A DNA stretch of 64,000 nt from Sediminibacterium sp. GTDB taxonomy: Bacteria > Bacteroidota > Bacteroidia > Chitinophagales > Chitinophagaceae. How positions within the stretch are numbered: the first letter of the stretch is position 1; each line of letters starts with the position of its first letter. Shown here piece after piece: positions 15,092 to 31,262 of the stretch. The stretch lies in NCBI GenBank assembly GCA_017537025.1, contig JAFWCB010000008.1, positions 620,001-684,000 on the forward strand. The letters run 5' to 3'. The notes below the pieces were generated by a model. The model saw only the letters and a program-made list of their open reading frames with translations. It was not told the DNA's origin and did not search any database. Made by a program: the position numbers and the translations under genes.

Positions 15092-15092
15092 C

Positions 15093-17159
15093 ATGCTTAC
15101 ACCCAATATATTACTGCAGGCGTATAAGCTCATGATGATGGCAAAATCCATGAGTGAAACCTACGATGCCAATAGGCAGGTGTGTAAGTATGTGCATTCT
15201 ACCTCTCGCGGCCACGAAGCTATTCAAATTGCAACCGGTTTACAATTACTACCCTGCGATTGGGTAAGCCCCTATTATAGAGATGATAGTTTAATGCTCG
15301 CAGCAGGCTTTGAGCCGTACGAGTTAATGCTTCAATTGTTGGCCAAAAAAGATGATCCCTTCTCCGGTGGTAGGTCATATTATTGCCACCCCAGTAATAA
15401 AGATGAAGTTCGTCCTTCTATCATACACCAAAGCAGTGCCACTGGTATGCAGGCCATACCTACCACAGGTTTAGCCCAAGGTGTTCAGTTTCTGGAGCAA
15501 ACACAATCGGCCAAACTCCGAAAATCCGCCGATGGAAAATCACCCATCGTTATATGTTCATTAGGTGATGGAAGTATGACGGAAGGAGAGGTAAGTGAAG
15601 CCCTTCAATTTGCATCCCTCAAACAATTACCGATTGTTTATTTAGTACAGGATAACCAGTGGAGTATCAGTGCCAGTGCCGATGAAGTAAGAACCATGAA
15701 TGCCTATGAATATGCTTGTGGTTTTAAAGGTCTTAAGCGAATGCAATGCGATGGCAGCGATTTTATGCGTTGCTATGAAACTATGGAGCAGGCAGTAAAC
15801 TATGCCCGCACCGAAAGAAAACCAGTACTAGTGCATGCGAAAGTGCCATTATTAGGGCATCATACCAGCGGGGTACGCAAAGAGTTTTACAGAAGCAGAG
15901 AAGATTTATTAAAACATGGATTATATGATCCAATCCCTAAACTAAGGCATCTCCTAAACGGTGTGGGATTTAATGATCATGAAATTAATAAAGTAGAAAC
16001 CGACGCTCTTGAAATCATACTGGAAGATTTTAAGAAAGCACAAGGAGCTGCTGAACCAGATATTCGTTCCGTTGAAGATCATGTGTTTGCACCTACAGCT
16101 ATTAAAGAAGAAAAAGGACAAAGAGTACCCAAAGGTGCTGAGAAAGTGATGATGGTAGATGCTGCCCTACATGCCATTGATGAAATTTTAGATGAATATC
16201 CTGAAGCCATATTATACGGACAAGATGTAGGAGGAAGGCTAGGGGGTGTTTTCCGGGAAGCGGCAACCCTGGCAGAAAAATATGGTGAGAACAGAGTGTT
16301 TAATACAGCCATTCAAGAGGCTTATATAGTTGGATCTACTGTTGGCTTGAGCGCTATGGGTATGAAGCCGATCGTAGAAATCCAGTTTGCCGATTATATC
16401 TATCCCGGCTTAAATCAGTTGGTTACCGAAGTAGCCAAATCTTGTTATTTATCTAACGGTAAGTTTCCCGTACAAATGGTATTGCGTGTACCTGTAGGTG
16501 CGTATGGGGGTGGGGGGCCATATCATAGTGGCAGTATCGAAAGTACCTTATTATCTATCAAGGGTATTAAAGTAGTATATCCTTCCAATGCCGCAGACAT
16601 GAAGGGTTTGATGAAAGCCGCCTTCCTCGATCCTAATCCTGTTATTATGCTTGAGCATAAAGGATTGTACTGGAGTAAAGTGCCCGGTACCGATGATGCC
16701 AAAACCATCGAACCGGCAAAAGATTATATATTGCCCCTAGGTAAAGCCAACGTAGTATTACAAACAGAAATGGAGCGGGTACGTAAGGGAGAAACTATTA
16801 CAGTGGTTACTTATGGCATGGGAGTATATTGGGCAAAAGCGGCTGCAGAGCGTTATCCCGGACAAGTAGAAATAGTAGACCTCCGATCTTTGTATCCATT
16901 AGATGAAGAAACCATCTTTAATTCGGTAAAGCGCCATGGTAAAGTATTAGTACTAACCGAAGAGCAACAAAATAATTCATTTGCCGAGGCTTTATCGCTT
17001 CGTATATCTAACGATTGCTACCATTTTTTAGATGCCAAGGTTGAAGTAATGGGAGCTAAAAACCTGCCGGCTATTCCTATCAATGTGGCATTAGAAACCG
17101 CCATGCTCCCCACTGCCACCAAAGTGGCTGAACGCATCGGGAAATTGTTGGCGTATTAG
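15093..17159 (+). CDS. Fused alpha/beta thiamine-diphosphate 2-oxoacid dehydrogenase E1
   Basis: 688 residues. The first half is an E1-alpha domain with the ThDP motif GDGSMTEGEVSEALQFA...QDNQ (around 150-190); the second half (from about 345) is E1-beta with VMMVDAALHAIDEIL, GQDVGGRLGGVFREA and EIQFADYIYPGLNQL. Fusion of the two subunits in one chain is common in Bacteroidota. Likely acts on branched-chain 2-oxoacids or pyruvate with E2/E3 encoded elsewhere. A longer paralog lies at 35095-37485. Confidence 0.88.
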   Translation: MLTPNILLQAYKLMMMAKSMSETYDANRQVCKYVHSTSRGHEAIQIATGLQLLPCDWVSPYYRDDSLMLAAGFEPYELMLQLLAKKDDPFSGGRSYYCHPSNKDEVRPSIIHQSSATGMQAIPTTGLAQGVQFLEQTQSAKLRKSADGKSPIVICSLGDGSMTEGEVSEALQFASLKQLPIVYLVQDNQWSISASADEVRTMNAYEYACGFKGLKRMQCDGSDFMRCYETMEQAVNYARTERKPVLVHAKVPLLGHHTSGVRKEFYRSREDLLKHGLYDPIPKLRHLLNGVGFNDHEINKVETDALEIILEDFKKAQGAAEPDIRSVEDHVFAPTAIKEEKGQRVPKGAEKVMMVDAALHAIDEILDEYPEAILYGQDVGGRLGGVFREAATLAEKYGENRVFNTAIQEAYIVGSTVGLSAMGMKPIVEIQFADYIYPGLNQLVTEVAKSCYLSNGKFPVQMVLRVPVGAYGGGGPYHSGSIESTLLSIKGIKVVYPSNAADMKGLMKAAFLDPNPVIMLEHKGLYWSKVPGTDDAKTIEPAKDYILPLGKANVVLQTEMERVRKGETITVVTYGMGVYWAKAAAERYPGQVEIVDLRSLYPLDEETIFNSVKRHGKVLVLTEEQQNNSFAEALSLRISNDCYHFLDAKVEVMGAKNLPAIPINVALETAMLPTATKVAERIGKLLAY

Positions 17160-17184
17160 GCTTTTCCCATTCATCCAAACCACC

Positions 17185-17192
17185 TATATTTG
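17185..17192 (+). promoter_or_regulatory. -7 box TATATTTG of the tRNA-Met repeat array
   Basis: Exact TAnnTTTG match 10 bases upstream of the first tRNA-like unit. Transcription from here would run through both pseudo-copies before reaching the intact tRNA. Confidence 0.55.
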
Positions 17193-17202
17193 CACCCCAA
17201 TT

Positions 17203-17274
17203 GGCGAGGTAGCTCAGTTGGTTAGAGCACAGGATTCATAACCGCCTAAGGCGGACTGGGTTCAAGACATATTT
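17203..17274 (+). pseudogene. tRNA-Met pseudo-copy 1 (5' half only)
   Basis: The first 39 or so bases are identical to the 5' half of the tRNA at 17347, including the acceptor strand, D-arm and CAT anticodon. After the anticodon loop the sequence switches to a small hairpin (CCGCC-TAA-GGCGG) and a relic GGGTTCAAG without a matching 3' T-stem or acceptor strand. It cannot fold as a tRNA. Unit length is 72 bases. Confidence 0.8.
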
Positions 17275-17346
17275 GGCGAGGTAGCTCAGTTGGTTAGAGC
17301 ACAGGATTCATATCCGCCTAAGGCGGACTGGGTTCAAGACATATTT
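17275..17346 (+). pseudogene. tRNA-Met pseudo-copy 2 (5' half only)
   Basis: Second 72-base unit, identical to the first except for a base right after the anticodon (CATA-T instead of CATA-A). It also switches away from tRNA sequence immediately 3' of the anticodon loop. Confidence 0.8.
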
Positions 17347-17420
17347 GGCGAGGTAGCTCAGTTGGTTAGAGCACAGGATTCATAACCCTGAGGTCTCGGG
17401 TTCAAGTCCCGATCTCGCTA
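17347..17420 (+). tRNA. tRNA-Met (CAT)
   Basis: Folds as a complete tRNA: acceptor GGCGAGG with TCTCGCT (G1-T72 and G7-T66 wobbles), D-arm GCTC/GAGC, anticodon loop TTCATAA, T-arm TCGGG-TTCAAGT-CCCGA, discriminator A. CCA is not fully encoded. The CAT anticodon could be elongator Met, initiator or Ile2 (lysidine). The absence of three G-C pairs in the anticodon stem argues against initiator. Its 3' 44 bases belong to the left direct repeat of the hydrogenase island. Confidence 0.92.
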
Positions 17421-17422
17421 CA
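17377..17422 (+). repeat. attL-like copy of 46-bp direct repeat
   Basis: Runs from GATTCAT at the anticodon loop to the tRNA 3' end (CTACA). It is identical over 46 bp to 30132-30177. Flanks differ on both sides, so these are the exact repeat ends. Confidence 0.9.
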
Positions 17423-17430
17423 TGAAAATC

Positions 17431-17462
17431 AAGGACTTACGTTAAATCGTGAGTCCTTTTTT
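17431..17462 (+). terminator. Terminator after tRNA-Met
   Basis: Hairpin AAGGACTTACG / CGTGAGTCCTT (one G-T pair) with loop TTAAAT, followed by six T. It lies on the island side of the left repeat, so the intact tRNA now uses a terminator brought by the island. Confidence 0.85.
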
Positions 17463-17706
17463 GTGTGAGGAAAAAGGCATTTTATATTGAAACCCTTGTT
17501 ATTATTGGATTTGATTGCGTGAGGAAGAGAAATATATTATTCTTTGTTTAATCGAAAAACGTCCAATTTTAGTAAGAAGCGATCCTTTTTATTTGACATA
17601 AAATTTCTATTCAACATCTAAAACATAAAATCTGAATTATAAAAAAATTAAACTTTATAATTTTTTTTATAAAATATTTGCTAAATTCAACTTCAAATTA
17701 AACATT
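17463..17706 (+). other. Leader region of the hydrogenase operon
   Basis: 244 bases without a gene, very AT-rich towards the 3' end. No exact TAnnTTTG box is present; the nearest are TATTCTTTG (one base too long, around 17540) and a TTGACA-like stretch around 17595. The long untranslated leader leaves room for regulation, but no operator could be identified by eye. Confidence 0.4.
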
Positions 17707-18663
17707 ATGGCAAATGTACTATGGCTTCAAGGAGGTGCTTGCAGTGGGAACACAATGTCCTTTTTGAATGCACAAGAACCAACTGTTGTGGAATTGATTG
17801 TCGATTTTGGCATTAATATTCTATGGCATCCTACGGTGGGTTTGGAGCTGGGTGACCAGGTGGGTAATCTCATGAAAAAGTGTATAAGTGGCGAAACACC
17901 TTTGGACATTTTTGTTTTTGAGGGATCAATTATTGAGGGCCCTCATGGGACAGGCACAATGAACTACTTTGCTGAGCGACCAATGAAAGATTGGGTTCGT
18001 GAACTGGCAGGAGTAGCACAGTTTGTCGTAGCTGTCGGAGATTGCGCTACTTATGGTGGAATTCCGGCAGTCGATCCAAATCCAAGTGAGTCCACAGGTA
18101 TGCAGTTTTTGAAAAAGAACAAAGGTGGGTTTTTGGGTGCAAACTTTGTTGCAAAATCAGGCCTTCCTGTTATCAATATTCCAGGTTGTCCATGTCACCC
18201 TGATTGGGTTTCTCAAATTTTAGTTGCAATTGCTACAGGAAGAGCTGGTGATATTTTGATAGATGAATATCATCGTCCTAAAACATTCTTCTCAACTTAT
18301 GTGCAATCTGGTTGTACAAAAGTGAATGGCTTTGCAAATAAAATCGAAGGTGGCTTTGGAAAGAAAGGTGGATGTTTATTCTATGAGGTAGGCTGTAGAG
18401 GACCAATGACTAAAGCTAGTTGTAATAATATATTATGGAATCGTTGGTCTTCTAAAACAAGAGCTAATCACCCATGTTTAGGTTGTACTGAACCAGGATT
18501 CCCTCACCATGATTTAAAGCCAGGTTCAGTATTTAATACCATGAAATATTTGGGTGTATTTCCAAAGGAAGTTCCTGATGGAGACTCAAAATTGGGTTAT
18601 TACGTAAAAGCTGGTGTTGAAAAAGTATTTTCCAACAGCAAAGTGGGGTCTTATTCAAAATAA
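17707..18663 (+). CDS. hupS: [NiFe] hydrogenase small subunit, group 2a (HupS/HucS type)
   Basis: Electron-transfer subunit with three Fe-S clusters. 318 residues, no Tat signal peptide, so cytoplasmic-side. The start MANVLWLQGGACSGNTMSFL and overall pattern match cyanobacterial HupS and mycobacterial HucS rather than membrane-bound group 1 enzymes. Cluster ligands: C12, C113 and C161 (the first Cys of the usual CxxC is Gly), then C203, C223, C230 with Gln200 where other families have His, and C239, C257, C260. Three Cys per cluster suggests [3Fe-4S] clusters, as I recall reported for Huc. An extra C163 is unexplained. First gene of the island operon. Confidence 0.95.
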   Translation: MANVLWLQGGACSGNTMSFLNAQEPTVVELIVDFGINILWHPTVGLELGDQVGNLMKKCISGETPLDIFVFEGSIIEGPHGTGTMNYFAERPMKDWVRELAGVAQFVVAVGDCATYGGIPAVDPNPSESTGMQFLKKNKGGFLGANFVAKSGLPVINIPGCPCHPDWVSQILVAIATGRAGDILIDEYHRPKTFFSTYVQSGCTKVNGFANKIEGGFGKKGGCLFYEVGCRGPMTKASCNNILWNRWSSKTRANHPCLGCTEPGFPHHDLKPGSVFNTMKYLGVFPKEVPDGDSKLGYYVKAGVEKVFSNSKVGSYSK

Positions 18664-18689
18664 ACTTACAACCTTAAAAAAATCATCAA

Positions 18690-20285
18690 ATGAGTGCATC
18701 TGAAAAAATTATGAACATTTCTCCTGTAGGTCGCGTTGAAGGCGATTTAGATGTTCGAGTATATATCGAAAATAATAGGGTTGTTCGTGCCCATACTCAA
18801 GCTGCAATGTTTAGAGGCTTTGAAAAAATCATGCAAGGAAAAGACTATCAATCTGGATTGATTGTCACACCTCGTATTTGTGGTATTTGTGGAGGATCAC
18901 ATCTTTATTGTGCATCTTCAGCATTAGATACTGCAATGCAAACAACTTTGCCTTCAAATGCTCTATTATTAAGAGCAATTGGACAAATTACTGAAACCAT
19001 TCAAAGTATACCAAGATGGTTTTATGCTATTTTTGCAACTGATTTATGTAACAAAAAATTTGCTCATCATCCTTCTTATCAAGAAGTATGCAGACGTTGG
19101 GCAGCCTATGCAGGTAAACATTTTCAAATTGGTGTTACTGCATCAGGTAGACCAGTGGAAGTTTATGCTCTGTTTGGTGGTCAGTGGCCTCATTCTTCAT
19201 ACATGGTTCCAGGTGGTGTAATGTGTTCCCCAACACTTTCTGATATAACTAGAGCATATTCTATTTTGAATCAATTTAGGAATGATTGGTTAGAGCCAAT
19301 ATTTCTTGGATGCTCTGTTGAACGATACATGCAAATTAAAACATGGGATGATTTACTAGCTTGGGTTGACGAGAAAGAAAGTCACAAGAATTCTGATATG
19401 GGTTTCTTCATTAAAGTTGCTCAAGAATTTGGATTAGATACTTTCGGACAAGGTGTTGGTAAGTATATGGCTTTTGGTACTTATATACACAAAGATCTTT
19501 GGAACCAACCAAAAATTGAAACAAGAAATAATGCATTGATTTCTCCTTCTGGTTTTTGGGATGGATTTAATTTCCATGAATTAGATCATTTAAAGGTTAC
19601 TGAACACGTGAAACACAGCTGGTATGAGGATTATCCTGCAGCACATCCTTGGGATGAGCCAATGCCAAATCCTCTAAAATCTACCAATCTACACCATACA
19701 GATTTTGATGGTAAATATTCATGGGCTAAAGCACCTAGATACGATGATCATGCAGTAGAAGTTGGTCCATTAGCTAGAGTAATCATGGCTGGTAATCCAA
19801 ATAATAAATCACACCAAATCCAAGATCCACTTTTCTTGGATATTATGAAAGTTAAAGGACCGTCTGTGTTTACTCGTACTTTAGCACGTTTACATGAAGA
19901 GGCAAAACTATTTAGTTTAGTGCATGAATGGCTTGGACAAATCAACCTTAATGATGAATTTTACATCAAGCCAACTCAAAGAGATGGACGTGGTTGGGGT
20001 GCAACCGAGGCTGCACGTGGTGCATTAGCACATTGGGTTGAAATTGAAGATGGTAAAATCAAAAATTATCAAGTAATGGCTCCAACAACTTGGAATGTTG
20101 GCCCAAATGATGAAAAAGGAAGAGCAGGAGCAATTGAAGCTGCATTAACTGGAATTGAGATCGCTGATCCAAATGATCCGGTAGAGGTTGGACTTGTTGC
20201 ACGTTCATTTGACTCATGTCTAGTATGTACTGTTCATGCATTAGATAAAAATGGTAAGGACTTAACTAAGTTCAGAATTAATTAG
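18690..20285 (+). CDS. hupL: [NiFe] hydrogenase large subunit, group 2a (HupL/HucL type)
   Basis: Carries the Ni-Fe(CN)2CO active site that splits H2. 531 residues. The L1 motif RICGICGGSH gives C64 and C67; the L2 motif DSCLVCTVH gives C510 and C513 with H516. The 15 residues after H516 (ALDKNGKDLTKFRIN) are the C-terminal extension expected to be removed by the endopeptidase encoded next. L2 has Ser509 where most families have Pro. Begins 26 nt after hupS. A strong hairpin terminator follows the gene. Confidence 0.96.
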   Translation: MSASEKIMNISPVGRVEGDLDVRVYIENNRVVRAHTQAAMFRGFEKIMQGKDYQSGLIVTPRICGICGGSHLYCASSALDTAMQTTLPSNALLLRAIGQITETIQSIPRWFYAIFATDLCNKKFAHHPSYQEVCRRWAAYAGKHFQIGVTASGRPVEVYALFGGQWPHSSYMVPGGVMCSPTLSDITRAYSILNQFRNDWLEPIFLGCSVERYMQIKTWDDLLAWVDEKESHKNSDMGFFIKVAQEFGLDTFGQGVGKYMAFGTYIHKDLWNQPKIETRNNALISPSGFWDGFNFHELDHLKVTEHVKHSWYEDYPAAHPWDEPMPNPLKSTNLHHTDFDGKYSWAKAPRYDDHAVEVGPLARVIMAGNPNNKSHQIQDPLFLDIMKVKGPSVFTRTLARLHEEAKLFSLVHEWLGQINLNDEFYIKPTQRDGRGWGATEAARGALAHWVEIEDGKIKNYQVMAPTTWNVGPNDEKGRAGAIEAALTGIEIADPNDPVEVGLVARSFDSCLVCTVHALDKNGKDLTKFRIN

Positions 20286-20304
20286 ATATTAGTCAGAAAT
20301 TAAA

Positions 20305-20338
20305 TTAAGTATGGGTTACATCCCATACTTAATTTTTT
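20305..20338 (+). terminator. Intrinsic terminator/attenuator after hupL
   Basis: Perfect 11-bp stem TTAAGTATGGG / CCCATACTTAA with loop TTACAT, followed by six T. It sits between hupL and the maturation genes. Partial read-through would give more structural subunits than maturation proteins. Confidence 0.85.
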
Positions 20339-20374
20339 GTAACCCATAAGAAGTTGATCAATTAAAACGTGAAA

Positions 20375-20854
20375 ATGAAATGTGCAATACTTGGTTTTGG
20401 AAACCCTGTACGAGGCGATGATGCTGTAGGTTGCCAAGTTATAGAAAAACTCCACGAAAAGTTCAATAATGAAAAAGATCATATCGGTTTATTTGATATG
20501 GGTACAAATGGATTTGAAATTTTATTTACACTTTCAGGATACAATAAAATTATAGTTGTTGATGCAGTCCTTGATAATCAAAATAAAATTGGTCAAATAT
20601 ACAAAGTTCCTGCAGAAGAAGTTTTGATGGCTCCTGAAGAAGATCCTCTTCTTTTTTTACACGGAATGAAATGGAATCAGGGGTTAAGCTATGCAAAAAA
20701 AATTATGGGTGATTCCTATCCAACTGATGTGGATGCTTATTTAATAAGTATTTCTAATATTAGTTTCATTGAAGCAATGCAGCCAGAGGTTGAAAAAGCA
20801 AGGGATGAAGTTATTGAGTTAATTTTTAAAGAGGTAGTATCGTGGTTGAATTAA
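20375..20854 (+). CDS. Hydrogenase maturation endopeptidase (HupD/HupW type)
   Basis: Cleaves the C-terminal tail of the large subunit after nickel insertion. 159 residues from ATG at 20375 (a GTG two codons upstream is also open). N-terminal ILGFGNPVRGDDAVGCQVIE carries the conserved Asp nickel-probing residue; D(M)GTNGFEI and VVDAVLDNQNKIG continue the HyaD/HupD family pattern. Positioned right after the subunit it processes. Confidence 0.9.
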   Translation: MKCAILGFGNPVRGDDAVGCQVIEKLHEKFNNEKDHIGLFDMGTNGFEILFTLSGYNKIIVVDAVLDNQNKIGQIYKVPAEEVLMAPEEDPLLFLHGMKWNQGLSYAKKIMGDSYPTDVDAYLISISNISFIEAMQPEVEKARDEVIELIFKEVVSWLN

Positions 20855-21153
20855 TTAATCATTACTTGCATATTGACGAATCCGTTTTCTCAAATTGTCT
20901 GAATAGTTCAGAAAATGTTTTGTATGTTTATTATCCAAGAGAATGCAAACTTTTAATTACACCTGTAAGCAATGAATTTTTTAAGAATATCCATAAATGT
21001 AACGGTACATTTTTAAAACAGAAAAATACAAAGGGCGTTCGGGTCTTTCAAATTGCTAACATATTACTTGATAACGAAATTTCTTTAGTAGACAGATCAT
21101 TGTCATATGAAGCTGATGCTCTTACATCAATTTTAACCGTTAAGTTTAATTGA
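20842..21153 (+). CDS. Unknown 103-residue hydrogenase-cluster protein
   Basis: Begins at GTG 20842 inside the 3' end of the endopeptidase gene (13-bp overlap) with a purine-rich GAGGTAG ahead of it; stop one base before the next ATG. No domain recognised: mixed alpha/beta, no signal peptide, no membrane span, two Cys (residues 19, 35) plus C49. Overlap with its neighbours says it is translated in step with them. It may be a small structural or scaffolding partner of the enzyme (HucM plays that role in mycobacterial Huc, as I recall), but no sequence similarity to HucM can be claimed. Confidence 0.75.
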   Translation: MVELINHYLHIDESVFSNCLNSSENVLYVYYPRECKLLITPVSNEFFKNIHKCNGTFLKQKNTKGVRVFQIANILLDNEISLVDRSLSYEADALTSILTVKFN

Positions 21154-21154
21154 T

Positions 21155-22609
21155 ATGAAAATAAATATTGAGGAAAATAACAGTTTTTTAAAATCTAAAT
21201 TAATTGGAATTAATTTTGAGGAAGTGGACAATGATTTTTGTGATGTAAAAATCACGCCACTTGGGTTATCAATATTTCCTGATTGGAATCTAAGAAGAGT
21301 TCCTTTTATCTATTCTGATAGAATAGATGTAAAGTATTGGTCAGAAGTGTGTAAGATCATAGATGGAGCATTAGCTAGCGATGAAGAGTTACTTAAAAAT
21401 TATCCATTGATTAATCGTATTTCACAATGTGTACAAACAGTATTTGATGACGGGGTATTATATACAAATATATTTGAAGATATTATTCCACAAACACAAT
21501 TTGAGGAATATGCAATACAACACAATAAAGCGGTTTTACTTCACTTTAATTATAGCAAATTAAATACTGATATTGAGGAAATAAATGAGCAATTTAAGCA
21601 CGCAGCTTATTTAGCACCAGATGCTTATTGGATGTCTTTTACCCATTATCTCAATTTTGTTTTTTTACTTGATCATGATAGGATAGATGAAGCATATGAT
21701 CTTGTTATGAAAATCGAAAGGAGAATCGATATAAATTCAGTAAGATCAATAGTGCTACTTACCATATTGAAGTATTTATCATTACAAGAAGATGTATCAA
21801 ATTATCAAAGTATGGTACTACAAATTGCCGATTTATTAACTAGTATGAAAGATTTACCTGAATGTCAAATAGATGGTTTAATTGCACTTTCTCAGTTTCA
21901 AGAAACACAACAAAATATAAATGAAGCTGTTGCAAGTTTCGAAAAAGCTCTTTCTATTGCTAAATCAAGCAATTCAAAACAACTTTCATATATCTATGCT
22001 TCATTAGGTGATCTTCAGTTGAAGGCTGCACAATTTGGCGATATTTCTCAATATAGTTTTGCCCAACACTCATATCAGCAGGCATTAAAAACAATTCTCA
22101 GAGAAAACGATGCTCAACGATATGGACTATGTCAAATGAATCTTGGTATCATATACGCAGAAATGCCAATACGTGACGTTAAAAGACATGTATATGCTGG
22201 CCTTGCTCAAACAGCATTTACAGAAGCAATGCAAGTTTTTAATAAGTTTGATGATCCATATCAATATGCTATGGTGTGTACAAACTTTGCAAATGCAATG
22301 CTAAGATTGCTCCCTGATATTGATAAAGAAAGATTTGATAAAATAAGTTTTTATTTGTTTGAGGCTTTGAATATCAGAAAATCAAATCAATTCCCAGAAG
22401 AGCGAGCAATTACAATTTGTACTCTTTTAAACTTGTATTTCCATCGGATAGAAACAGCTGAGGAAATAGACTATCAATGGCTTAATGAGATGAAGCTTAT
22501 GTCAGATGAAATTATTTCACTTACTTCAAATACATTTCTAGTTGACAATGCACATAATGCTATTAAGTTCGTTGATAATACAAAATCACAATTAAGTAGT
22601 AATGCATGA
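21155..22609 (+). CDS. TPR-repeat protein of the hydrogenase cluster
   Basis: 484 residues, cytoplasmic (no signal peptide). The N-terminal 100 residues form an unrecognised domain; from about 130 to 460 the chain is helical with TPR-like 34-residue units, clearest at 240-400 (INEAVASFEKALSIAKSSNSKQLSYIYASLGDLQ, then QHSYQQALKTIL, AQTAFTEAMQVF). TPR proteins accompany group 2a hydrogenases in other bacteria, as I recall, but their job is unknown; chaperoning of subunits is plausible. The end overlaps hypA by 8 bp. Confidence 0.8.
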   Translation: MKINIEENNSFLKSKLIGINFEEVDNDFCDVKITPLGLSIFPDWNLRRVPFIYSDRIDVKYWSEVCKIIDGALASDEELLKNYPLINRISQCVQTVFDDGVLYTNIFEDIIPQTQFEEYAIQHNKAVLLHFNYSKLNTDIEEINEQFKHAAYLAPDAYWMSFTHYLNFVFLLDHDRIDEAYDLVMKIERRIDINSVRSIVLLTILKYLSLQEDVSNYQSMVLQIADLLTSMKDLPECQIDGLIALSQFQETQQNINEAVASFEKALSIAKSSNSKQLSYIYASLGDLQLKAAQFGDISQYSFAQHSYQQALKTILRENDAQRYGLCQMNLGIIYAEMPIRDVKRHVYAGLAQTAFTEAMQVFNKFDDPYQYAMVCTNFANAMLRLLPDIDKERFDKISFYLFEALNIRKSNQFPEERAITICTLLNLYFHRIETAEEIDYQWLNEMKLMSDEIISLTSNTFLVDNAHNAIKFVDNTKSQLSSNA

Positions 22610-22964
22610 GATGTCAATCATACAACAAGTAGTTAATTCACTAAACAGTGAACTAAGTGCAGAAGAAAAATATCAAGTAAGTAATATAATTTTGCATTTG
22701 GGTGAATTGAGTAATGTACAACCTATTTTACTAGAAAATGCATTCAAGGCCTACCAAGAGGCGTCTGCTGATTATGTACACACACGGTTAACAGTTTTAC
22801 AAATTCCTGTGGTCATTCATTGTGATCAATGTGGTGAAGATTCACGAGTAAAGCAATATGTTTTTAAGTGCAATAATTGTGGAAAGCCTTCAACTAACCT
22901 TATAAGTGGTGAGGAGTTGCTCATACACAAAATAGAATTTTTTGATCCTTTTAAACTTCAATAA
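22602..22964 (+). CDS. hypA: Hydrogenase nickel-insertion protein HypA
   Basis: 120 residues. N-terminal MHEMSI with the Ni-binding His2, and a zinc loop with two CxxC motifs (HCDQCGED around 71-77 and FKCNNCGKP around 90-95). Delivers nickel to the large subunit together with HypB. Overlaps the TPR gene by 8 bp. Confidence 0.96.
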   Translation: MHEMSIIQQVVNSLNSELSAEEKYQVSNIILHLGELSNVQPILLENAFKAYQEASADYVHTRLTVLQIPVVIHCDQCGEDSRVKQYVFKCNNCGKPSTNLISGEELLIHKIEFFDPFKLQ

Positions 22965-22970
22965 AAAAAT

Positions 22971-23684
22971 ATGATACAGTTATCTCAACAACGAACATCA
23001 AAAAATAAGCGTGGGACAATTAATTGTGATAATACTACTAGGCACTTGTTACAAGCAAATGATTTTGTAGCAGAAGCAATAAGAAATAAAATGCTTCAAT
23101 CTAAAACACTTGTAATTAATATTGTTTCTTCTGCAGGAAGTGGTAAAACAACATTAATGATAGAAACAGGAAAAAGACTCAAAGAAAAATATTCAATTAA
23201 GGTCCTCGTTGGGGATCTTGAAACTGAACGCGATGCTGATAGAATAAAAGCAGCTGGTGTTGATGCACTTCAAATTGTCACAGGTGGCATTTGTCATTTA
23301 GAAGCACAAATGGTATGGCAAGCAATGGAGACAATGGATCTTACTGGAACCGATTTACTTTTTATCGAAAATGTTGGTAATTTAGTTTGTCCAGCTTCTT
23401 TTGATTTGGGGGAAGATTATAGAGTTACACTTATTGCAAGTACAGAAGGAGACGATAAGCCCAAAAAATATCCAAGAATGTTTTTAACCTCAGAACTGAT
23501 GATTGTTTCGAAGGCCGATTTACTTCCTTATGTCCCTTTTTCGGTTGAAGAAGTTACGAAAGATGCTAGAGATATTAATCATGAATTAGAAGTTATTACA
23601 ATTTCCTCAATAAAAGGAGATGGAATTGAAGAATGGTGTCAATGGTTAGAAGAAAGAATTGCACTAAAAAGACAGATTGTTTGA
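22971..23684 (+). CDS. hypB: Hydrogenase nickel-incorporation GTPase HypB
   Basis: 237 residues. P-loop SSAGSGKTTL (about residues 50-60), VGDLETERDADRI, TGGICHLEA with the metal-binding Cys-His pair, ENVGNLVCPASFDLGED and the base-specificity segment SKADLLPY. There is no histidine-rich nickel-storage stretch or N-terminal CxxCGC motif, so nickel must be supplied directly, perhaps by HypA and the permease at the end of the operon. Confidence 0.96.
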   Translation: MIQLSQQRTSKNKRGTINCDNTTRHLLQANDFVAEAIRNKMLQSKTLVINIVSSAGSGKTTLMIETGKRLKEKYSIKVLVGDLETERDADRIKAAGVDALQIVTGGICHLEAQMVWQAMETMDLTGTDLLFIENVGNLVCPASFDLGEDYRVTLIASTEGDDKPKKYPRMFLTSELMIVSKADLLPYVPFSVEEVTKDARDINHELEVITISSIKGDGIEEWCQWLEERIALKRQIV

Positions 23685-23687
23685 TAG

Positions 23688-25940
23688 ATGGTTAAAACAT
23701 GGTCAATAGTAGTTGAAGGTTTGGTCCAAGGTGTTGGATTCAGACCTCATTTACTTAAAAAATCAATGTTAAATAATATTCCTATTGAAATAGGAAATAC
23801 TGCAAAAGGTGTTGAAGTTATTCTCAATGCAGATACAGAAATTTCTGCTAATGAATACATGCATATCTTGACTGTCGACTTGCCAGCAAAAGTTAGAATT
23901 GAAAAGTGGGCTATTTTTAAAAGTGAGAATCGTTTAATATATAACAGTAAGATTATTTATCCTCAGTATGAGGTAAATAATCTTTTCATAACGCCTGATT
24001 TCTCCTGGTGTAGCTCTTGCAAAAAAGAATTTGATGATTTTTCTAATGTGAGGCATGACTTTTCATTTATTAATTGTACCCAATGTGGTCCTCGATATAG
24101 TGTTATGAAAAAACTACCTTTTGAAAGAGAGAACACTACCCATGAAATAGAAATGTGTGTGAGTTGTTCACAAGAGTATAGTGATCTTAACAATTCTCGA
24201 GCACTTTCACAATTGAATTCATGTAAGAACTGTTTTCCTTCCTCTCATTTGTATTTTGATAATGAGAATAAAATTGTTAAGGAACAATTAGCAAAGCTAT
24301 CTTTACATATTACTAATGGTAAAGTAGTTGCTGTTCAAGGTATTGCTGGTTTTCTTTTGCTTCTAGATTATAAGAACAATCAAGCTATAACATATTTGAG
24401 AGAAAAGAAAAATCGTCCAAAAAAGCCATTTGCAATAATGTTTGCTACAATTGAACAAATCAAGAATAATTTTGAGTGTAGTGATATTGAAATAAAATTA
24501 TTGAGTGATACTTCAGCACCAATAGTATTACTATCTCCAAAAATGAAATTCAAAGAAAGGGTTTCATTAGAAAATATTTCTGGACCTTCTCAATTGGTTG
24601 GTGTTATGCTTGCACCATCTGCCTATTTATATCAATTATGTATTTCAAATGACGGTGGTTTAATTGCTACAAGTGCTAATAATCAAGGCTTGCCGCTTTC
24701 TTATTCAATGCCAACTGCTAATCATTTATTGAGTTCAATTGCTGTTGAAGCTTGGTATTTTGATAGAGAAATCTTTTTCCCTCAAGATGATTCTGTAACA
24801 ATGGTAACACCACTTAATCAATTACCAATAGTAATTAGAAGATCTAGAGGTTTATCACCAAGTTTAACAAAAGTGAAGAATTACTATTCTACCCAAATAG
24901 TTTTAGCGCTAGGAGCCGAAATAAAATCTACATTTACATTGGCATTTGAGAGTCAGATTTTGGTTTCACCATATCAAGGAAATATTGCAAACTTAGATAA
25001 TTTTGAACGGTTTTCTGAGAATATTAATAAGCAATTAACACTGTGTTCTGTAAAACCAGATGTTATTTTAATTGATCGCCACCCTTTGTTCCAGCATAAC
25101 GAGTTTGTTGATTCATTTAAACATGGTTCTCTTTTGGTAAAATCAGTACAACATCATGAGGCTCATGCTTGTGCTATTTTAGGGGAATCACATCTGTTTG
25201 AAAGTGATGGTAAGGTAATGTGTATAATTATGGATGGAATGGGTTTTGAGGATGAACAATTTATTAGAGGTGCTGCATGTTATATCTATGAAAAGGGACG
25301 ACTTATCGAATTGGAGAAATTTCCAACTTTCCGTTATCTCTTTAATGATAAAATGTCTTTTGAACCTCAGCTTTCTTTAGTTAGCATTATGGATGGAGAA
25401 GTTTTTGATGGAATGAAATTTACTTTTGAAGAATCCTATTTACACAATATTCAAACTTTAAAAGCACGTCAACCATTGACTAATAGTATAGGAAGGGTAT
25501 TTGACGCATTTGCTGCTTTAATAGGATTTGATTCAGTAAATAGTTTTGAAGGCGAGGCTGTGATTTGGCTAGACCAATTTGCAAGAAAAGGACTACTAGA
25601 GTATGGTTATGAAGGGCCATCTTATCAGTGGAATCGTTTATCTTGGAGAGATCTGTTCAGAAGATGTTGGATTGATATACAAAATGGGCTTTCTCCTTCA
25701 ACAATTGTATATAGTTTTATTAATACTATTGCAATCGATGTTGTAAACAACGTTTTGGATCAAAAAATAAAACATCTAGCAGTGAGTGGAGGTGTATTTC
25801 AGAATGCTGTATTGGTTGATTTGATTCAGTCACATTGTCAAAGTAATAGTATTTGTTTACATCTACACCAAGAACTTTCACCCAATGATGAAAATATAAG
25901 TTTTGGACAATATATGCACTATCTTCATATAACCTCATAA
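23688..25940 (+). CDS. hypF: Carbamoyltransferase HypF
   Basis: Makes the cyanide ligands from carbamoyl phosphate together with HypE. 750 residues, all domains present: acylphosphatase (VEGLVQGVGFRPHL, residues 8-21), two C4 zinc fingers (CSSC...CTQC and CVSC...CKNC, about 105-185), a YrdC-like domain (VAVQGIAGFLLLLD, RPKKPFAIMF) and a C-terminal Kae1-like carbamoyltransferase domain (VQHHEAHACA, LAVSGGVFQN). Full length. Confidence 0.96.
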   Translation: MVKTWSIVVEGLVQGVGFRPHLLKKSMLNNIPIEIGNTAKGVEVILNADTEISANEYMHILTVDLPAKVRIEKWAIFKSENRLIYNSKIIYPQYEVNNLFITPDFSWCSSCKKEFDDFSNVRHDFSFINCTQCGPRYSVMKKLPFERENTTHEIEMCVSCSQEYSDLNNSRALSQLNSCKNCFPSSHLYFDNENKIVKEQLAKLSLHITNGKVVAVQGIAGFLLLLDYKNNQAITYLREKKNRPKKPFAIMFATIEQIKNNFECSDIEIKLLSDTSAPIVLLSPKMKFKERVSLENISGPSQLVGVMLAPSAYLYQLCISNDGGLIATSANNQGLPLSYSMPTANHLLSSIAVEAWYFDREIFFPQDDSVTMVTPLNQLPIVIRRSRGLSPSLTKVKNYYSTQIVLALGAEIKSTFTLAFESQILVSPYQGNIANLDNFERFSENINKQLTLCSVKPDVILIDRHPLFQHNEFVDSFKHGSLLVKSVQHHEAHACAILGESHLFESDGKVMCIIMDGMGFEDEQFIRGAACYIYEKGRLIELEKFPTFRYLFNDKMSFEPQLSLVSIMDGEVFDGMKFTFEESYLHNIQTLKARQPLTNSIGRVFDAFAALIGFDSVNSFEGEAVIWLDQFARKGLLEYGYEGPSYQWNRLSWRDLFRRCWIDIQNGLSPSTIVYSFINTIAIDVVNNVLDQKIKHLAVSGGVFQNAVLVDLIQSHCQSNSICLHLHQELSPNDENISFGQYMHYLHITS

Positions 25941-25950
25941 ATAAATAATT

Positions 25951-26199
25951 ATGTGTTTAGCAATTCCTGGTAAAGTTGAAAGTATAGAATTTATGTATGA
26001 TAATTCAGTAAGAATGGCCAAAGTATCATTTGGTGGAATTATAAAACAGGCGAGTCTTGAAATGCTTCCTCAAGCAGAGGTTGGTGACTATGTACTCGTG
26101 CATGTTGGTGTTGCCATTAGTAGAGTTGATGAAGAAGAAGCACAGAAAGTATTTGAATATTTAAGAGAGGCAGGTGAATTAGATGAATTAAATCATTAA
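25951..26199 (+). CDS. hypC: Hydrogenase assembly chaperone HypC
   Basis: 82 residues. Starts MCLAIPGKV with the Cys2 that carries the Fe(CN)2CO unit with HypD, then YVLVHVGVAISRVDEEEA typical of HypC/HupF. Only 10 bp after hypF and 2 bp before hypD. Confidence 0.97.
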   Translation: MCLAIPGKVESIEFMYDNSVRMAKVSFGGIIKQASLEMLPQAEVGDYVLVHVGVAISRVDEEEAQKVFEYLREAGELDELNH

Positions 26200-26201
26200 A
26201 C

Positions 26202-27293
26202 ATGAAATACGTAACTGAGTATAGAGACGCAGATATAGTTCATAGTTATCTGGCTTGTATAAAGTCAATTGTAACAAAGCCTTGGACTATTATGGAAGTA
26301 TGTGGAGGACAAACACATAGTCTTGTTAAACATGGTTTGTTAGATATATTACCACCTGAGATTACTATAGTACATGGCCCTGGTTGTCCAGTTTGTGTAA
26401 CACCACAGTCCTTAATAAATCAAGCTGTAAGCCTTTCTATTGATCATAAAGTTATTTTATGTTCGTTCGGTGATATGCTTCGTGTACCTGGATCTAAGAT
26501 GAGTTTGTTGGAAGCAAAGGCAAGAGGAGCAGATGTTCGAATTTTATATTCTCCACTTGAGGCTGTAGAGATAGCGAAAAAATTTCCAGATAAACAGGTT
26601 GTTTTCTTTGCTGTAGGATTTGAAACTACAGCCCCAGCAAATGCTTTGTCTGTATTGCATGCATATCGCGCAGGTCTTAAAAATTATTCTATTCTAACTG
26701 CGCATGTATTAGTTCCTCCTGCTATTAGGGCTATTATGGATGACCCACATACAAGAGTAAATGGATTTCTTGCTGCAGGTCATGTTTGTACAATCATGGG
26801 AAATAGCGAATATTATCCAATTGCTGAAGAGTATAAAATTCCATTAGTGGTTACAGGATTTGAACCTGTAGATTTAATGCAAGGATTGTATCTAACCATA
26901 CAGCAATTAGAGGAAGGAAAATTTGAGGTAATCAATCAGTATAGTAGAGTTGTAAAAGAGGAAGGTAATCCAGAAGCAAGAGCAGTCATCAACAAAGTGT
27001 TTGAGGTTTCCCATCGAAATTGGAGAGGGATAGGAGTGATTCCGCGAAGTGGATATGCACTTAGAGAAGAGTTTGCTTTGTATGATGCTGAAAAAAAATT
27101 TGGTTTTTTATCTCAAGATCAAGAAAATGTAAATGGTTGTATTGCAGGATCAATATTAAAAGGCTTAAAAAAGCCTAAAGATTGTCCTCATTTTAATAAA
27201 ACATGTACACCTCTAAACCCATTGGGAGCACCAATGGTTTCTACAGAAGGTGCATGTGCTGCTTATTATCATTTTTCTGGAATAATAGAATAA
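26202..27293 (+). CDS. hypD: Fe-CN-CO assembly scaffold HypD
   Basis: 363 residues. Contains the family motifs MEVCGGQTHSLVKHG, IVHGPGCPVCVTP, FFAVGFETTAPANA and the [4Fe-4S]-ligand cysteines near the C-terminus (VNGCIAGSIL, CPHFNKTCTP, TEGACAAYY). Acts with HypC to build the diatomic-ligand iron moiety. All conserved cysteines are present. Confidence 0.97.
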   Translation: MKYVTEYRDADIVHSYLACIKSIVTKPWTIMEVCGGQTHSLVKHGLLDILPPEITIVHGPGCPVCVTPQSLINQAVSLSIDHKVILCSFGDMLRVPGSKMSLLEAKARGADVRILYSPLEAVEIAKKFPDKQVVFFAVGFETTAPANALSVLHAYRAGLKNYSILTAHVLVPPAIRAIMDDPHTRVNGFLAAGHVCTIMGNSEYYPIAEEYKIPLVVTGFEPVDLMQGLYLTIQQLEEGKFEVINQYSRVVKEEGNPEARAVINKVFEVSHRNWRGIGVIPRSGYALREEFALYDAEKKFGFLSQDQENVNGCIAGSILKGLKKPKDCPHFNKTCTPLNPLGAPMVSTEGACAAYYHFSGIIE

Positions 27294-27302
27294 AATTAAA
27301 TT

Positions 27303-28340
27303 ATGCATTTACAATGTCCGATTCCAAAAACAGATTTTGATGTCATAACCTTAGGTCATGGTAGTGGTGGTCAACTTACATCTCGATTACTTGATACTTT
27401 TGTTATTAATCAACTTTCAAATCCAGAATTAGAAAAACGTCTTGATGGAGCAATACTTCAACTGGATGGGAATTTAGCTTTTTCAACTGATAGCTATGTT
27501 GTTTCTCCTATATTTTTTCCTGGAGGTAATATAGGTGATTTGGCAATTAATGGAACAGTAAATGATTTAGCTATGTGCGGTGCTTTACCCAAATACCTAT
27601 CTCTTTCGTTTATTATTGAAGAAGGTTTACCTGTAAGTGAATTTTGGGAAGTTATCCAATCTATAAAGCAAGCTGCATCAAAAGCGAATATTTCTATTGT
27701 AACAGGAGATACTAAGGTTGTTGAGAAGGGGAAGGGAGATAAATTATTTATCAATACATCTGGTATAGGCAGATTACATCCAAAGGCTCAAATTGATGTA
27801 AACAGGGTATCTGCTGGAGATGTAATAATTGTAAGTAATAAAATTGCACATCATGGTATGGCTATAATGAGTGTAAGGGAGGGATTGATATTTGAAAGTA
27901 ACATACTCACAGACAGCAAACCATTGGCCCATGTATGTATGTCATGTTTAGATAAATTTGGAGATAGTATTAAATTATTTCGGGATCCAACAAGAGGTGG
28001 TGTTGCAACTACCCTTACTGAAATTGCTGAATCGTGTGGGAAAGGGATTTTTATTCAAGAAAAAAATATCAGTTTGGATCCTTCGGTAGAAGGAGCTTGT
28101 GAGATGCTAGGTCTGGATCCTTTATATGTTGCAAATGAGGGAGTTTTTATTGTAATTGTAGATGCTTTAAAGGCAAATGAGTTTTTGGAATTTTTGAGTC
28201 AGAAGGAAGAAACATCTTTTGCATTTAAACTTGGAGAAGTAACTGATTCTTATGAAGGGAAAGTGATTTTAGAATCAAAAATGAAAGGTAAAAGAGTGTT
28301 GACTAAATTAATAGGCGATCAACTTCCAAGAATTTGTTGA
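27303..28340 (+). CDS. hypE: Carbamoyl dehydratase HypE
   Basis: 345 residues. N-terminal ITLGHGSGGQLTSRL, FSTDSYVVSPIFFPGG, GDLAINGTVNDLAMCGA, DPTRGGVATTLTEIA, and a C-terminus ending in PRIC, the cysteine that receives the carbamoyl group from HypF. Its TGA overlaps the ATG of the NHL gene by one base. Confidence 0.97.
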   Translation: MHLQCPIPKTDFDVITLGHGSGGQLTSRLLDTFVINQLSNPELEKRLDGAILQLDGNLAFSTDSYVVSPIFFPGGNIGDLAINGTVNDLAMCGALPKYLSLSFIIEEGLPVSEFWEVIQSIKQAASKANISIVTGDTKVVEKGKGDKLFINTSGIGRLHPKAQIDVNRVSAGDVIIVSNKIAHHGMAIMSVREGLIFESNILTDSKPLAHVCMSCLDKFGDSIKLFRDPTRGGVATTLTEIAESCGKGIFIQEKNISLDPSVEGACEMLGLDPLYVANEGVFIVIVDALKANEFLEFLSQKEETSFAFKLGEVTDSYEGKVILESKMKGKRVLTKLIGDQLPRIC

Positions 28341-29383
28341 TGTTAAAAAATCCTGAACATATATTTTTAGGAAGTGATCAATCTCCCTTCCTTGCACCTA
28401 GAGGAATTTGTGTACATAATAATTGTCTACTTGTATCCGATACTGCTCAAAATAGAATATTTATTTGGAAAAATATTCCAACTACAAGTTATGCTGAACC
28501 TGATATTATTTTAGGTAATCAAGAAGCAGATGTTTCTGAAATGAATTTTAAATATCCAAGTGGCATTTGGACAAATGGAGACAAGTTAGTAGTTGCTGAT
28601 GCTTGGAACCATCGCGTTTTAATTTGGCATAAATTCCCGACAACTAATCATACACTACCTGATGTAGTAGTAGGTCAGTTAGATTTTAATTCAGATTTAC
28701 CTAATCAATTGGGAGTTAATAATCCTCCAAGTTCATCTAGTTTATATTGGCCATATGGTGTTTATAGCGATGGAGTATCATTGTGGATTGCAGATACTGG
28801 TAATAGAAGAATATTATTTTATAAAAATATACCTTTGCATAATGGTAGTTCAGCAGATGAAGTAATTGGGCAAGATAATATGGAATCAAGGGATTTGAAT
28901 CCAAATTTTTCAACATGGCCATATTCAATAAAATTAGATGTAAATGGAGGTATGATTGTTACTGATACCCAATATTTTCGAGTTTTATATTGGAAGTCTT
29001 GGAAAAATGCTATAAAAGGCGAACCAAATGCGATATGGGGTCAACAAGATTTAGAATCAAATGGACAAAATCGGCATTACTTAAAGCCTACTGCTTATTC
29101 ACTAAGTTGGAATTATGATGCATTAATACATGAGAAACATAAGTTGGTCTTCATTGCAGATACCGGAAACAGTAGAATATTGAGTTATCCTTTTGACTTA
29201 AATTATGGTGAATCTGCAACAACTATTTATGGACAAAAAGATTTTGATTCTATTGGAGAAAATAAAGAAAGTATAATGGGACTTGATGGACATTTATATT
29301 GGCCATTTAGCATTGCAGTTGATGACGAAAGATTGTTTGTATGTGAAACAGGCAATAATCGTATATTTATATACAAAATATAA
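28340..29383 (+). CDS. NHL-repeat beta-propeller protein of the hydrogenase cluster
   Basis: 347 residues from the ATG overlapping the hypE stop. Repeats of a 50-70-residue unit with phrases LLVSDTAQNRIFIWKNIPT, VVADAWNHRVLIWHKFPT, WIADTGNRRILFYKN, FIADTGNSRILSY and FVCETGNNRIFIYK form about six NHL blades; each also carries an ILGNQ/VGQ/YGQ segment. No signal peptide. NHL genes are found beside group 2a hydrogenases elsewhere, as I recall; a protein-docking or assembly role is an inference. Confidence 0.88.
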   Translation: MLKNPEHIFLGSDQSPFLAPRGICVHNNCLLVSDTAQNRIFIWKNIPTTSYAEPDIILGNQEADVSEMNFKYPSGIWTNGDKLVVADAWNHRVLIWHKFPTTNHTLPDVVVGQLDFNSDLPNQLGVNNPPSSSSLYWPYGVYSDGVSLWIADTGNRRILFYKNIPLHNGSSADEVIGQDNMESRDLNPNFSTWPYSIKLDVNGGMIVTDTQYFRVLYWKSWKNAIKGEPNAIWGQQDLESNGQNRHYLKPTAYSLSWNYDALIHEKHKLVFIADTGNSRILSYPFDLNYGESATTIYGQKDFDSIGENKESIMGLDGHLYWPFSIAVDDERLFVCETGNNRIFIYKI

Positions 29384-29385
29384 TC

Positions 29386-29997
29386 ATGCAAGATCTGATT
29401 TTATTTATAATCGCATTTTCAGTTGGATTTGTTCATACTTTTGAAGCAGATCATTTAGCGGCAGTCACAAATTTAGTAACGCGCAATATTGGATTTTCAG
29501 TTACTGCAAAAGATGGATTTTACTGGGGTATTGGACATTCTGCAACGATTTGGTTCATAGGTTTGGTTATCTTAGTTTTCAAATATAATATTTCTAATAC
29601 TTCTTTTTCTAAACTAGAAAGTATTGTTGGTTTAATGTTAATAGTGCTGGGTGTAGTTAGAATGATTCATTTTAAAAAAGGGCATCAACATACTAAATTT
29701 AGTTCGCCAAAGTTGGCATTTGGAGTTGGTGTGGTGCATGGATTAGCTGGAAGTGGTGCAGTAGTTGCCGCTGCAGTAACAAAAACCTCTAATATTAGCT
29801 CAGGATTAATCTATTTGTTATTGTTTGGTTTAGGAAGCATAGTTGGGATGTTTTCTGTCTCTGCAGGATTGAGTTGGATGCTTCAAAAACTCAATTTCAA
29901 AATTACAACTCTAGTAACCCTTTTTACTTTTTTTTCTTCACTAATTTGTATTGTTTACGGCAGCGTAATTATTTATAATTCTTTGTTTACAATTTAA
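29386..29997 (+). CDS. Nickel permease, UreH/NicO-like
   Basis: 203 residues, about six membrane spans. The first span holds HTFEADH, the HX4DH nickel-binding signature of NiCoT-type permeases, followed by GIGHSATIW and GVVHGLAGSGAVV, as in UreH/HupE-type transporters. Last gene of the hydrogenase operon, 2 bp after the NHL gene, so it very likely feeds nickel to HypA/HypB. Confidence 0.87.
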   Translation: MQDLILFIIAFSVGFVHTFEADHLAAVTNLVTRNIGFSVTAKDGFYWGIGHSATIWFIGLVILVFKYNISNTSFSKLESIVGLMLIVLGVVRMIHFKKGHQHTKFSSPKLAFGVGVVHGLAGSGAVVAAAVTKTSNISSGLIYLLLFGLGSIVGMFSVSAGLSWMLQKLNFKITTLVTLFTFFSSLICIVYGSVIIYNSLFTI

Positions 29998-30050
29998 TCT
30001 GAGTTATATAAAATAATAACATTTTCCCTTGCGTGAGGTACATCTCACAA

Positions 30051-30094
30051 AAAATGTTCACTTATACACTAATTCAATCTAAAGTGAACATTTT
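30051..30094. terminator. Terminator hairpin at the end of the hydrogenase operon
   Basis: Perfect 13-bp inverted repeat AAAATGTTCACTT / AAGTGAACATTTT with an 18-base loop, 53 bp after the permease stop. A smaller hairpin GTGAG / CTCAC followed by six A lies just upstream (around 30034-30049). Confidence 0.65.
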
Positions 30095-30131
30095 ATATAC
30101 TGATTATCAATAGGTTAATCTATTCAAGATA

Positions 30132-30177
30132 GATTCATAACCCTGAGGTCTCGGGTTCAAGTCCCGATCTCGCTACA
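30132..30177 (+). repeat. attR-like copy of 46-bp direct repeat (tRNA-Met 3' fragment)
   Basis: Second exact copy of the tRNA-Met 3' part, from the anticodon loop to CTACA. The preceding bases (TTCAAGATA) do not continue the tRNA, so this is a 3' fragment left on the far side of the insertion. Confidence 0.9.
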
Positions 30178-30178
30178 A

Positions 30179-30209
30179 AGCCCCGATAGTATCGTCGGGG
30201 CTTTTTTAT
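30179..30209 (+). terminator. Original terminator of the tRNA-Met gene
   Basis: Hairpin AGCCCCGA / TCGGGGCT followed by TTTTTATT, directly after the tRNA fragment. Before the island was inserted this would have terminated the tRNA transcript. Confidence 0.85.
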
Positions 30210-30232
30210 TGAGATTATCGGTAATTTCACAC

Positions 30233-30526
30233 ATGCATCCGTACATCATCAACGCATCTGTTCAAATCGTTCCCATTGGTACTAAAAAACATCCTTACGT
30301 TTGGGTAGATGAAGCAATCAGCATTATTCAGCAATCCGGGTTAAAGTATACCGTTGGGGCTTTTGGTACCGATATTGAAGGCAGTTATAAAGAAGTAATG
30401 AAACTCATTGAAGATATAAATGAGTATTTGTATCAACAAGCTTGCGAAGAATGGATAGTAAATTGTCAAATTCAGTTTAGAGCAGGATCCGATATTACCA
30501 TTGAGGAAAAAACCAACAAATATTAG
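30233..30526 (+). CDS. Thiamine-binding-like protein (DUF77/YqgV family)
   Basis: 97 residues from ATG at 30233; the frame is open 8 codons upstream from a TTG inside the tRNA terminator region. The pattern INASVQIVPIGTK..PYVWVDEAISIIQQSGLKYTVGAFGTDIEG is that of the MTH1187/YqgV/YkoF ferredoxin-like family, which binds thiamine or its pyrimidine. First host gene right of the hydrogenase island. Confidence 0.85.
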   Translation: MHPYIINASVQIVPIGTKKHPYVWVDEAISIIQQSGLKYTVGAFGTDIEGSYKEVMKLIEDINEYLYQQACEEWIVNCQIQFRAGSDITIEEKTNKY

Positions 30527-30577
30527 CTTCCTTGTTGGGGGCTTCTATCGCAGTATACAATATTTAAAACTAAAAAT

Positions 30578-31245: not shown

Positions 31246-31262
31246 AAAATTGTTGCTGATTA

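Follow-up and report, generated by a model that had tools for sequence, protein, structure and literature searches.

A hydrogenase island in a tRNA-Met gene of Sediminibacterium, probably a cargo cassette placed by an integrase encoded elsewhere

The window analysed here, 64,000 nucleotides of a Sediminibacterium sp. genome (G000; contig JAFWCB010000008.1 of assembly GCA_017537025.1), carries a 12.8-kb island in a tRNA-Met gene, with 13 co-directional genes for a group 2a [NiFe] hydrogenase and its maturation. The island is probably a non-autonomous cargo cassette, placed at the tRNA by an integrase encoded elsewhere and followed by a recent exchange of flanks. A tRNA-Met-specific tyrosine integrase would have recombined the cassette into the anticodon loop of tRNA-Met(cat), and the displacement of the old tRNA 3' half to the far end would account for the layout that is observed. 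The tRNA would stay whole because the cassette carries its own tRNA 3' half and terminator. Later spread between close species seems to have gone through homologous recombination across the island flanks, as a near-identical block in a relative suggests.

The island is bounded by a perfect 46-bp direct repeat (100% identical, spacing 12,755), found by repeat search; its copies represent the left attachment core, attL (17377-17422, the tRNA 3' part), and the right core, attR (30132-30177, the displaced tRNA 3' part). These and all tRNA, hairpin, end and gene features below lie on the plus strand. A search of the 29-contig assembly that tolerates up to three mismatches finds the 46-mer at these two places and no other. 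The target, tRNA-Met(cat) at 17347-17421 (ARAGORN; Rfam RF00005, 66.3 bits), is intact, contains the left repeat copy and is the sole tRNA detected in the window. The repeat starts 2 nt ahead of the 7-nt anticodon loop TTCATAA. Terminator-like hairpins stand at the left end (17431-17458) and after the right repeat (30177-30204). They are two of the three such sites found by terminator scan in 17200-30400 (shuffle mean 5.6); this count is not above shuffles, so only the hairpin positions are informative. A preliminary description of this DNA had named the tRNA 3' repeat from the anticodon loop on, the 13 genes between its copies, a terminator after each copy and the lack of an integrase, and all of these are borne out. 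A second copy of the tRNA 3' end at the opposite boundary, as seen here, is typical of tRNA-integrated islands. The integrase typical of such islands was not found among the 13 genes by family searches, and the retention of attachment sites without recombination or transfer genes resembles a cis/trans-mobilizable cargo element (CIME-like). Compared with an integron, the repeat is the 3' half of a tRNA and the integrase gene is missing from the island's gene set.

Both ends of the element are conserved over about 100 bp. The left end (17423-17526, by sequence comparison) holds the terminator and two arm-like sites, TGTGTGAGG at 17462-17470 and TGCGTGAGG at 17516-17524; the right end (30028-30131) is 84.6% identical over 104 bp to that of a cassette in G022 and holds a further TGCGTGAGG at 30030-30038, ahead of the right repeat. 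A pattern search for TGYGTGAGG gives three matches on both strands of the 64 kb, all within ~110 bp of the two repeats; the mean in 100 shuffles is 0.39, and three were reached in 0 of 100. These boxes would be arm-type sites to which the integrase binds, and they are common to the ends of other cassettes.

The same ends carry other cargo elsewhere in the genus. In G096, G049, G107, G040 and G061 the left 104 bp recurs (85-88% identical in 103-106 aligned columns), with shorter matches of ~40 bp in further genomes; in G049, G096 and G064 this left end is joined to different cargo without an integrase. The right-end subtype is present in four of the 147 genomes of the genus survey (G000, G144, G022, G096), always directly before a tRNA fragment; it closes a 3.0-kb AraC/cupin/hydrolase cassette in G022 and a molybdoenzyme cassette in G096. 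Because both ends match cassettes with other cargo at the same tRNA, the island looks like one member of a tRNA-Met cassette family that draws on a common pool.

Across the genus, this tRNA-Met serves as a site of cassette arrays. A pattern search for the tRNA-Met core (up to three mismatches) matched 89 of the 147 genomes, and 39 of the 147 have at least two copies, up to 11, by a manual count that may include second true tRNA-Met genes. Mapping covered loci from 30 of the 89 matching genomes, among the matches listed, and missed cassettes that cross the ends of the fetched stretches. It gave 92 tRNA-Met sites, of which 21 count as intact tRNAs. Closed cassettes number 39, spread over 17 genomes, the island among them (729-13,525 bp, median 3,552). 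The mapped tRNA fragments begin at the 7-nt anticodon loop, with one base changed in two G077 fragments. The island's terminator stem type follows 58 of the 90 sites that have at least 60 nt downstream, and at least one arm-like GYGTGAGG lies downstream at 46 of the 90. Where 115 nt or more are available upstream (63 fragments), the main right-end type is seen in 52 and an arm-like site in 53; in 51 the site stands 102-103 nt ahead of the tRNA loop (49 of 61 fragments, in 19 genomes, when G000 and G144 are left out). Beyond the genus, an exact-pattern search at the level of the order matched 1 of 298 genomes, itself of the same genus; the pattern misses most known cassettes.

A candidate for the integrase exists in the genus. 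A family of tyrosine recombinases (about 400-427 aa, weak matches to Pfam PF00589) is found at tRNA-Met, with matches in 21 of the 101 genus genomes searched, several of them only short pieces. In G019, G045, G060, G064, G067, G081 and G096 the match ends ~80-110 bp from the tRNA-Met core. The left ends of these integrase-bearing elements resemble the island's: a terminator stem is followed by repeated boxes, either GTGAGG-type or, in G019, G060 and G067, GTGTCATG-type. Left-end sites common to cassettes and integrase-bearing elements might be read by one enzyme. In G093 the integrase lies ~4 kb inside a 37.5-kb interval, the only integrase-bearing element with its right end available. Stop codons first suspected in the G064 and G045 integrases turned out to be their normal ends. 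Beside the integrase, G060 (L243:9243-9620) and G093 (L116:6726-7103) encode 126-aa proteins that are similar by eye and have no Pfam match; a role as recombination partner is possible.

None of the 39 cassettes encodes the tRNA-Met integrase, by tblastn and by a profile built from nine family members, which fits mobilisation in trans. The host genome G000 also has no match to the family. It does have two proteins of 306 and 302 aa with PF00589, encoded on other contigs; these were rejected as candidates, with profile scores of 26.9 and 18.6 bits vs 692 and 777 for true members; judged by size, we take them to be housekeeping XerC/D. Since no tRNA-Met integrase was found in G000, the island copy there is probably dormant now. 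The preliminary description had left the island as either mobilised in trans or fixed; the shared-end cassettes and the integrase-bearing elements at the same tRNA sharpen this alternative.

Recent spread is suggested by G144, which has both island ends and most island genes at the same site. Over the block 13001-31500, compared in its parts 13,001-17,657 and 21,455-31,500, only 4 of 14,703 aligned bases differ; the remaining 17658-21454, 3.8 kb with hupSL, was not found in the G144 assembly. The flanks are more divergent: ~9.7% over 9,501-13,000 and ~7.8% (uneven) over 31,501-37,481, with ~1.2% over 1-9,500; farther upstream, divergence is 5-15% for ~20 kb and then mostly <2%, with single kilobases up to 11.1%. 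A near-identical block between diverged flanks suggests that homologous recombination recently carried island and flanks from one closely related species to another, or that the G144 contigs are a draft mosaic. The block, almost free of differences, extends past the island by ~4.4 kb on the left and 1.3 kb on the right, as expected if homologous recombination between common flanks were the sole route of spread and the tRNA repeats dated from one old insertion. That explanation is very improbable as a full account: it covers the recent spread and leaves the origin unexplained, so it is best taken as an added route. Common ends with different cargo point instead to site-specific recombination, as do the two tRNA-Met 3' alleles seen in the G014 array (L215-L218; 5 and 4 mapped sites). 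Different genomes also hold closely similar cassettes, in whole or in part (G014/G120, G146/G041, G009/G004), and together with the two G014 alleles they suggest donors from different species.

Several points weigh against a helper-placed cassette. The cassette family is not uniform: the terminator stem is missing at 32 of 90 sites, 12 of 63 fragments have no arm-like site at the 102-103 nt position, 34 of 78 left ends combine stem and arm-like site (counted without G000 and G144), and the island's own right end counts as a rare subtype. The site counts are not independent trials because of common ancestry, and the loci were chosen for having tRNA fragments. For G144, a draft bin, 4% contamination is listed, so its block could be an assembly mosaic; a second, different tRNA-Met of G144 sits on a 3.9-kb contig. 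Excision and transfer of the island, like integrase action on the cassettes, we infer from sequence.

Remnants of the integrase add to these points. In the G066 cassette a C-terminal piece (45 bits; 29 residues by tblastn) lies close to the left end, as does a weak one in a G004 cassette (12.5 bits), and weaker pieces occur elsewhere in the G146 (14.1 bits) and G081 (17.3) cassettes. Some cassettes may thus have been born by integrase deletion, and the further weak remnants lower the confidence in trans placement and raise that in its rival: an autonomous element that lost its own integrase and left the island as a fixed remnant, with no mobilisation in trans. The use of the same tRNA by integrase-bearing elements with similar left ends also speaks for such a loss. 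We regard it as unlikely for the island: the profile finds no integrase trace in it or in 34 others of the 39 cassettes, the 104-bp left end stands before different integrase-less cargo in three genomes, and closely similar cassettes are shared between genomes. A cassette placed by an integrase encoded elsewhere stays the preferred reading.

The preliminary description had inferred acquisition rather than ancestry, and the distribution and phylogeny of the hydrogenase and the composition of the island support this; none of the refuting conditions that the description had named came true. A close small subunit is present in three of the 147 genomes, namely G000 and, at 76% identity, G127 and G130; a distant one (28-36% identity) occurs in 33 others. 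In G127 and G130 the genes sit at other loci, in two 20-kb stretches in which no tRNA was found, and their DNA identity to the island is ~69.5% over the subunit genes. In a HupSL tree (32 sequences, LG+G4) the island gene is on its own deep branch and is not joined with the same-genus G127 and G130; the split between island gene plus Gemmatimonadaceae outgroup and all others has support 93.2/92, and several inner nodes are weak. With these loci and this identity, the tree leaves a hydrogenase that the island shares with G127 and G130 by descent unsupported. The hydrogenase relatives point to Bacteroidota, though they include one from Gemmatimonadaceae and one labelled Thalassobius. Composition, proposed earlier as a check, also differs: guanine-cytosine content (GC) is 33.5% within the island vs 38.8% and 37.5% outside, and GC at third codon positions (GC3) is 0.17-0.28 in ten island genes vs 0.28-0.36 in fifteen hand-picked flank genes.

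A relative without the island at the same site was also found, answering another of the proposed checks. Of the relatives, G046 has the closest upstream gene (96.7% DNA identity over 3.3 kb), and in place of the island it carries a small GIY-YIG insert: the tRNA is followed by a 258-bp GIY-YIG open reading frame (ORF), then by another tRNA 3' copy, and the right flank beyond has 86% identity over 380 bp. No hydrogenase is present at this tRNA site, and a small-subunit search of the G046 genome (completeness 76%) was also negative. Sporadic presence and an occupied-otherwise site agree with a tRNA island. An ancestral hydrogenase flanked by chance repeats is rejected on the strength of the G046 site, the sporadic hydrogenase, the HupSL tree and the perfect repeat.

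The G046 insert raises a further explanation, in which the tRNA 3' copy of the island came from a GIY-YIG-associated insertion and no tyrosine integrase took part. In G046 (L115:3266-3691) the GIY-YIG ORF is enclosed by two tRNA-Met 3' copies that have the same terminator, and a CCGCCTAAGGCGGA palindrome is present in the second; the whole looks like a separate mini-insertion type that uses tRNA-Met. Just upstream of the island's tRNA, at 17201-17344, the tRNA 5' half is repeated in two tandem decayed copies of 72 bp, which the preliminary description had passed over; both contain the same CCGCCTAAGGCGGA palindrome. Such decayed copies are also found in G144, and the matching stretch of G046 has one tRNA 5' half. 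Within the window the palindrome is restricted to the decayed copies and occurs at neither island end, and the island ends agree with those of the cassette family, which makes a GIY-YIG origin barely credible.

The cargo of the island is a group 2a [NiFe] hydrogenase by subunit sequence and locus gene order. The 13 ORFs run from 17707 to 29997 and were assigned by family search where no other basis is given: hydrogenase small subunit (HupS/HucS-like, 17707-18663); large subunit (HupL/HucL-like, with RICGICGGSH and DSCLVCTVH, 18690-20285); HycI-type maturation protease (20369-20854); a 103-aa protein present in homologous group 2a loci (20842-21153; 26-37% identity where found); a TPR protein (21155-22609, below the Pfam cut-off); HypA (22602-22964; 61.9 bits, under the curated cut-off of 88.1); HypB (22971-23684); full-length HypF (23688-25940; 460.6 bits, 5.5 under the cut-off of 466.1); HypC (25951-26199); HypD (26202-27293); HypE (27303-28340); an NHL-repeat protein (28334-29383); and a weak NicO-like nickel permease (29386-29997; 26.8 bits, under 27.7). 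Both hydrogenase subunits and the TPR repeats are also under curated cut-offs. The hydrogenase assignment relies on the match of the large subunit to Huc (PDB 7UUS/7UTD; E about 1e-186, nearly full length).

Gene order is largely conserved in related loci, read manually. From small subunit through HypD it is the same in 17 of 29 loci (one without a detected 103-aa gene); six agree as far as contig or stretch reaches, two have no detected HypF and HypE, and four differ (L091, L096, L101, L102). The G127 and G130 loci keep the island's order through the NHL gene. Group 2a hydrogenases include a Bacteroidota-associated clade, and the Huc locus as described shares the NHL protein and maturation genes with the island (PMC7784904). 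A difference from Huc is that family searches recognised no electron-transfer partner, such as the Rieske protein HucE, among the 13 genes. The earlier description of a "complete" hydrogenase system with six Hyp proteins, protease and nickel permease holds for subunits and maturation, several of them below cut-offs. Judged from the hydrogenase family, the cargo is predicted to let the host oxidise trace H2, and a gain of hydrogen oxidation in one step, as first proposed, is plausible.

Other cassettes carry diverse cargo, with enzyme sets among them. In a scan of 136 ORFs of at least 90 aa from the other 38 cassettes, TonB receptors lead with 11 Plug matches (among the best 25 of 127 families). 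The G009 cassette (L228, about 1920-15490, 13.5 kb) has a nos gene set with a NosZ of the Sec-dependent kind (927.6 bits, which exceeds the cut-off), NosD and NosL; an ABC ATPase and a permease stand in NosFY-like positions, and a protein for di-iron repair is also encoded. The G096 molybdoenzyme cassette (L269, contig C178:2-9784) has its left end outside the contig; it encodes a cut molybdopterin-binding subunit, and the contig shows no other enzyme subunit. Also encoded, cofactor synthesis included, are a cytochrome c, XdhC/CoxI, TauE and MobA-like, MoaA, MoeA, MoaE, MoaC, ThiF/MoeB-like and 77-aa ThiS/MoaD-like proteins. The G049 cassette has an RND efflux set, and the G064 cassette a sulfide-quinone-reductase-like protein, far below cut-off.

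These sets raise a broader idea: tRNA-Met might act as an integron-like docking port, at which a dedicated integrase family moves standard-ended cassettes with self-sufficient enzyme kits. We put this forward tentatively, as somewhat less probable than its opposite. The kits would be H2 oxidation with nickel maturation, N2O reductase with Nos accessory genes, and molybdenum hydroxylase with its cofactor pathway. If the docking port is real, energy metabolism could be rewired cassette by cassette.

Comparable systems place the island within a known kind. Ccr-like recombinases, relevant to Dehalococcoides, are of serine type, and Alteromonas belongs to another phylum than the island host. The additive flexible genomic island (fGI) fGI1 of Alteromonas has tRNA-targeted cassettes, one type with a complete hydrogenase cluster, and A. 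macleodii DE and A. australica H17 share this hydrogenase cassette at >99% similarity; unlike the present case, the fGI1 passages available give no account of common cassette ends or a helper integrase (PMC4119200). Dehalococcoides has tandem ssrA islands, including vcr-GI, with RNA-gene 3' repeats and cargo such as vinyl chloride respiration; 15 of its 31 islands have no integration module and were suggested to be cis-mobilizable. There the target is the tmRNA T-loop and the enzyme Ccr-like, whereas here they are the tRNA-Met anticodon loop and a tyrosine integrase (PMC3146451). In Methylophilaceae, fGI-2 at tRNA-Lys has recurring tRNA 3' repeats and variable cargo, as here, but its repeat is 20 bp and 79-80% of its proteins are unknown; the "tycheposon" fGI-3 shares tRNA-Met and a tyrosine recombinase, but has the recombinase inside the element (PMC10872708), a defining feature for which family and profile searches of the island were negative. 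The passages available of PMC6501319 and PMC11389934 hold nothing closer, and no report of a tRNA-Met array in this genus turned up in the literature searched. Given these precedents from Alteromonas, Dehalococcoides and Methylophilaceae, what seems less usual here is that many integrase-less cassettes have uniform ends and that enzyme-plus-maturation kits recur.

If the cassette reading is true, a trait built from many genes, like hydrogen oxidation, could be taken up in ready-made form, and an environmental Bacteroidota genus offers a testable helper-and-cassette system. The same tRNA-Met port carries N2O-reduction and molybdoenzyme sets, so trace-gas functions may be swapped as units and not inherited.

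Just right of the island flank, at 30578-30769, lies a 63-aa ORF whose motif resembles that of a truncated methyltransferase start.

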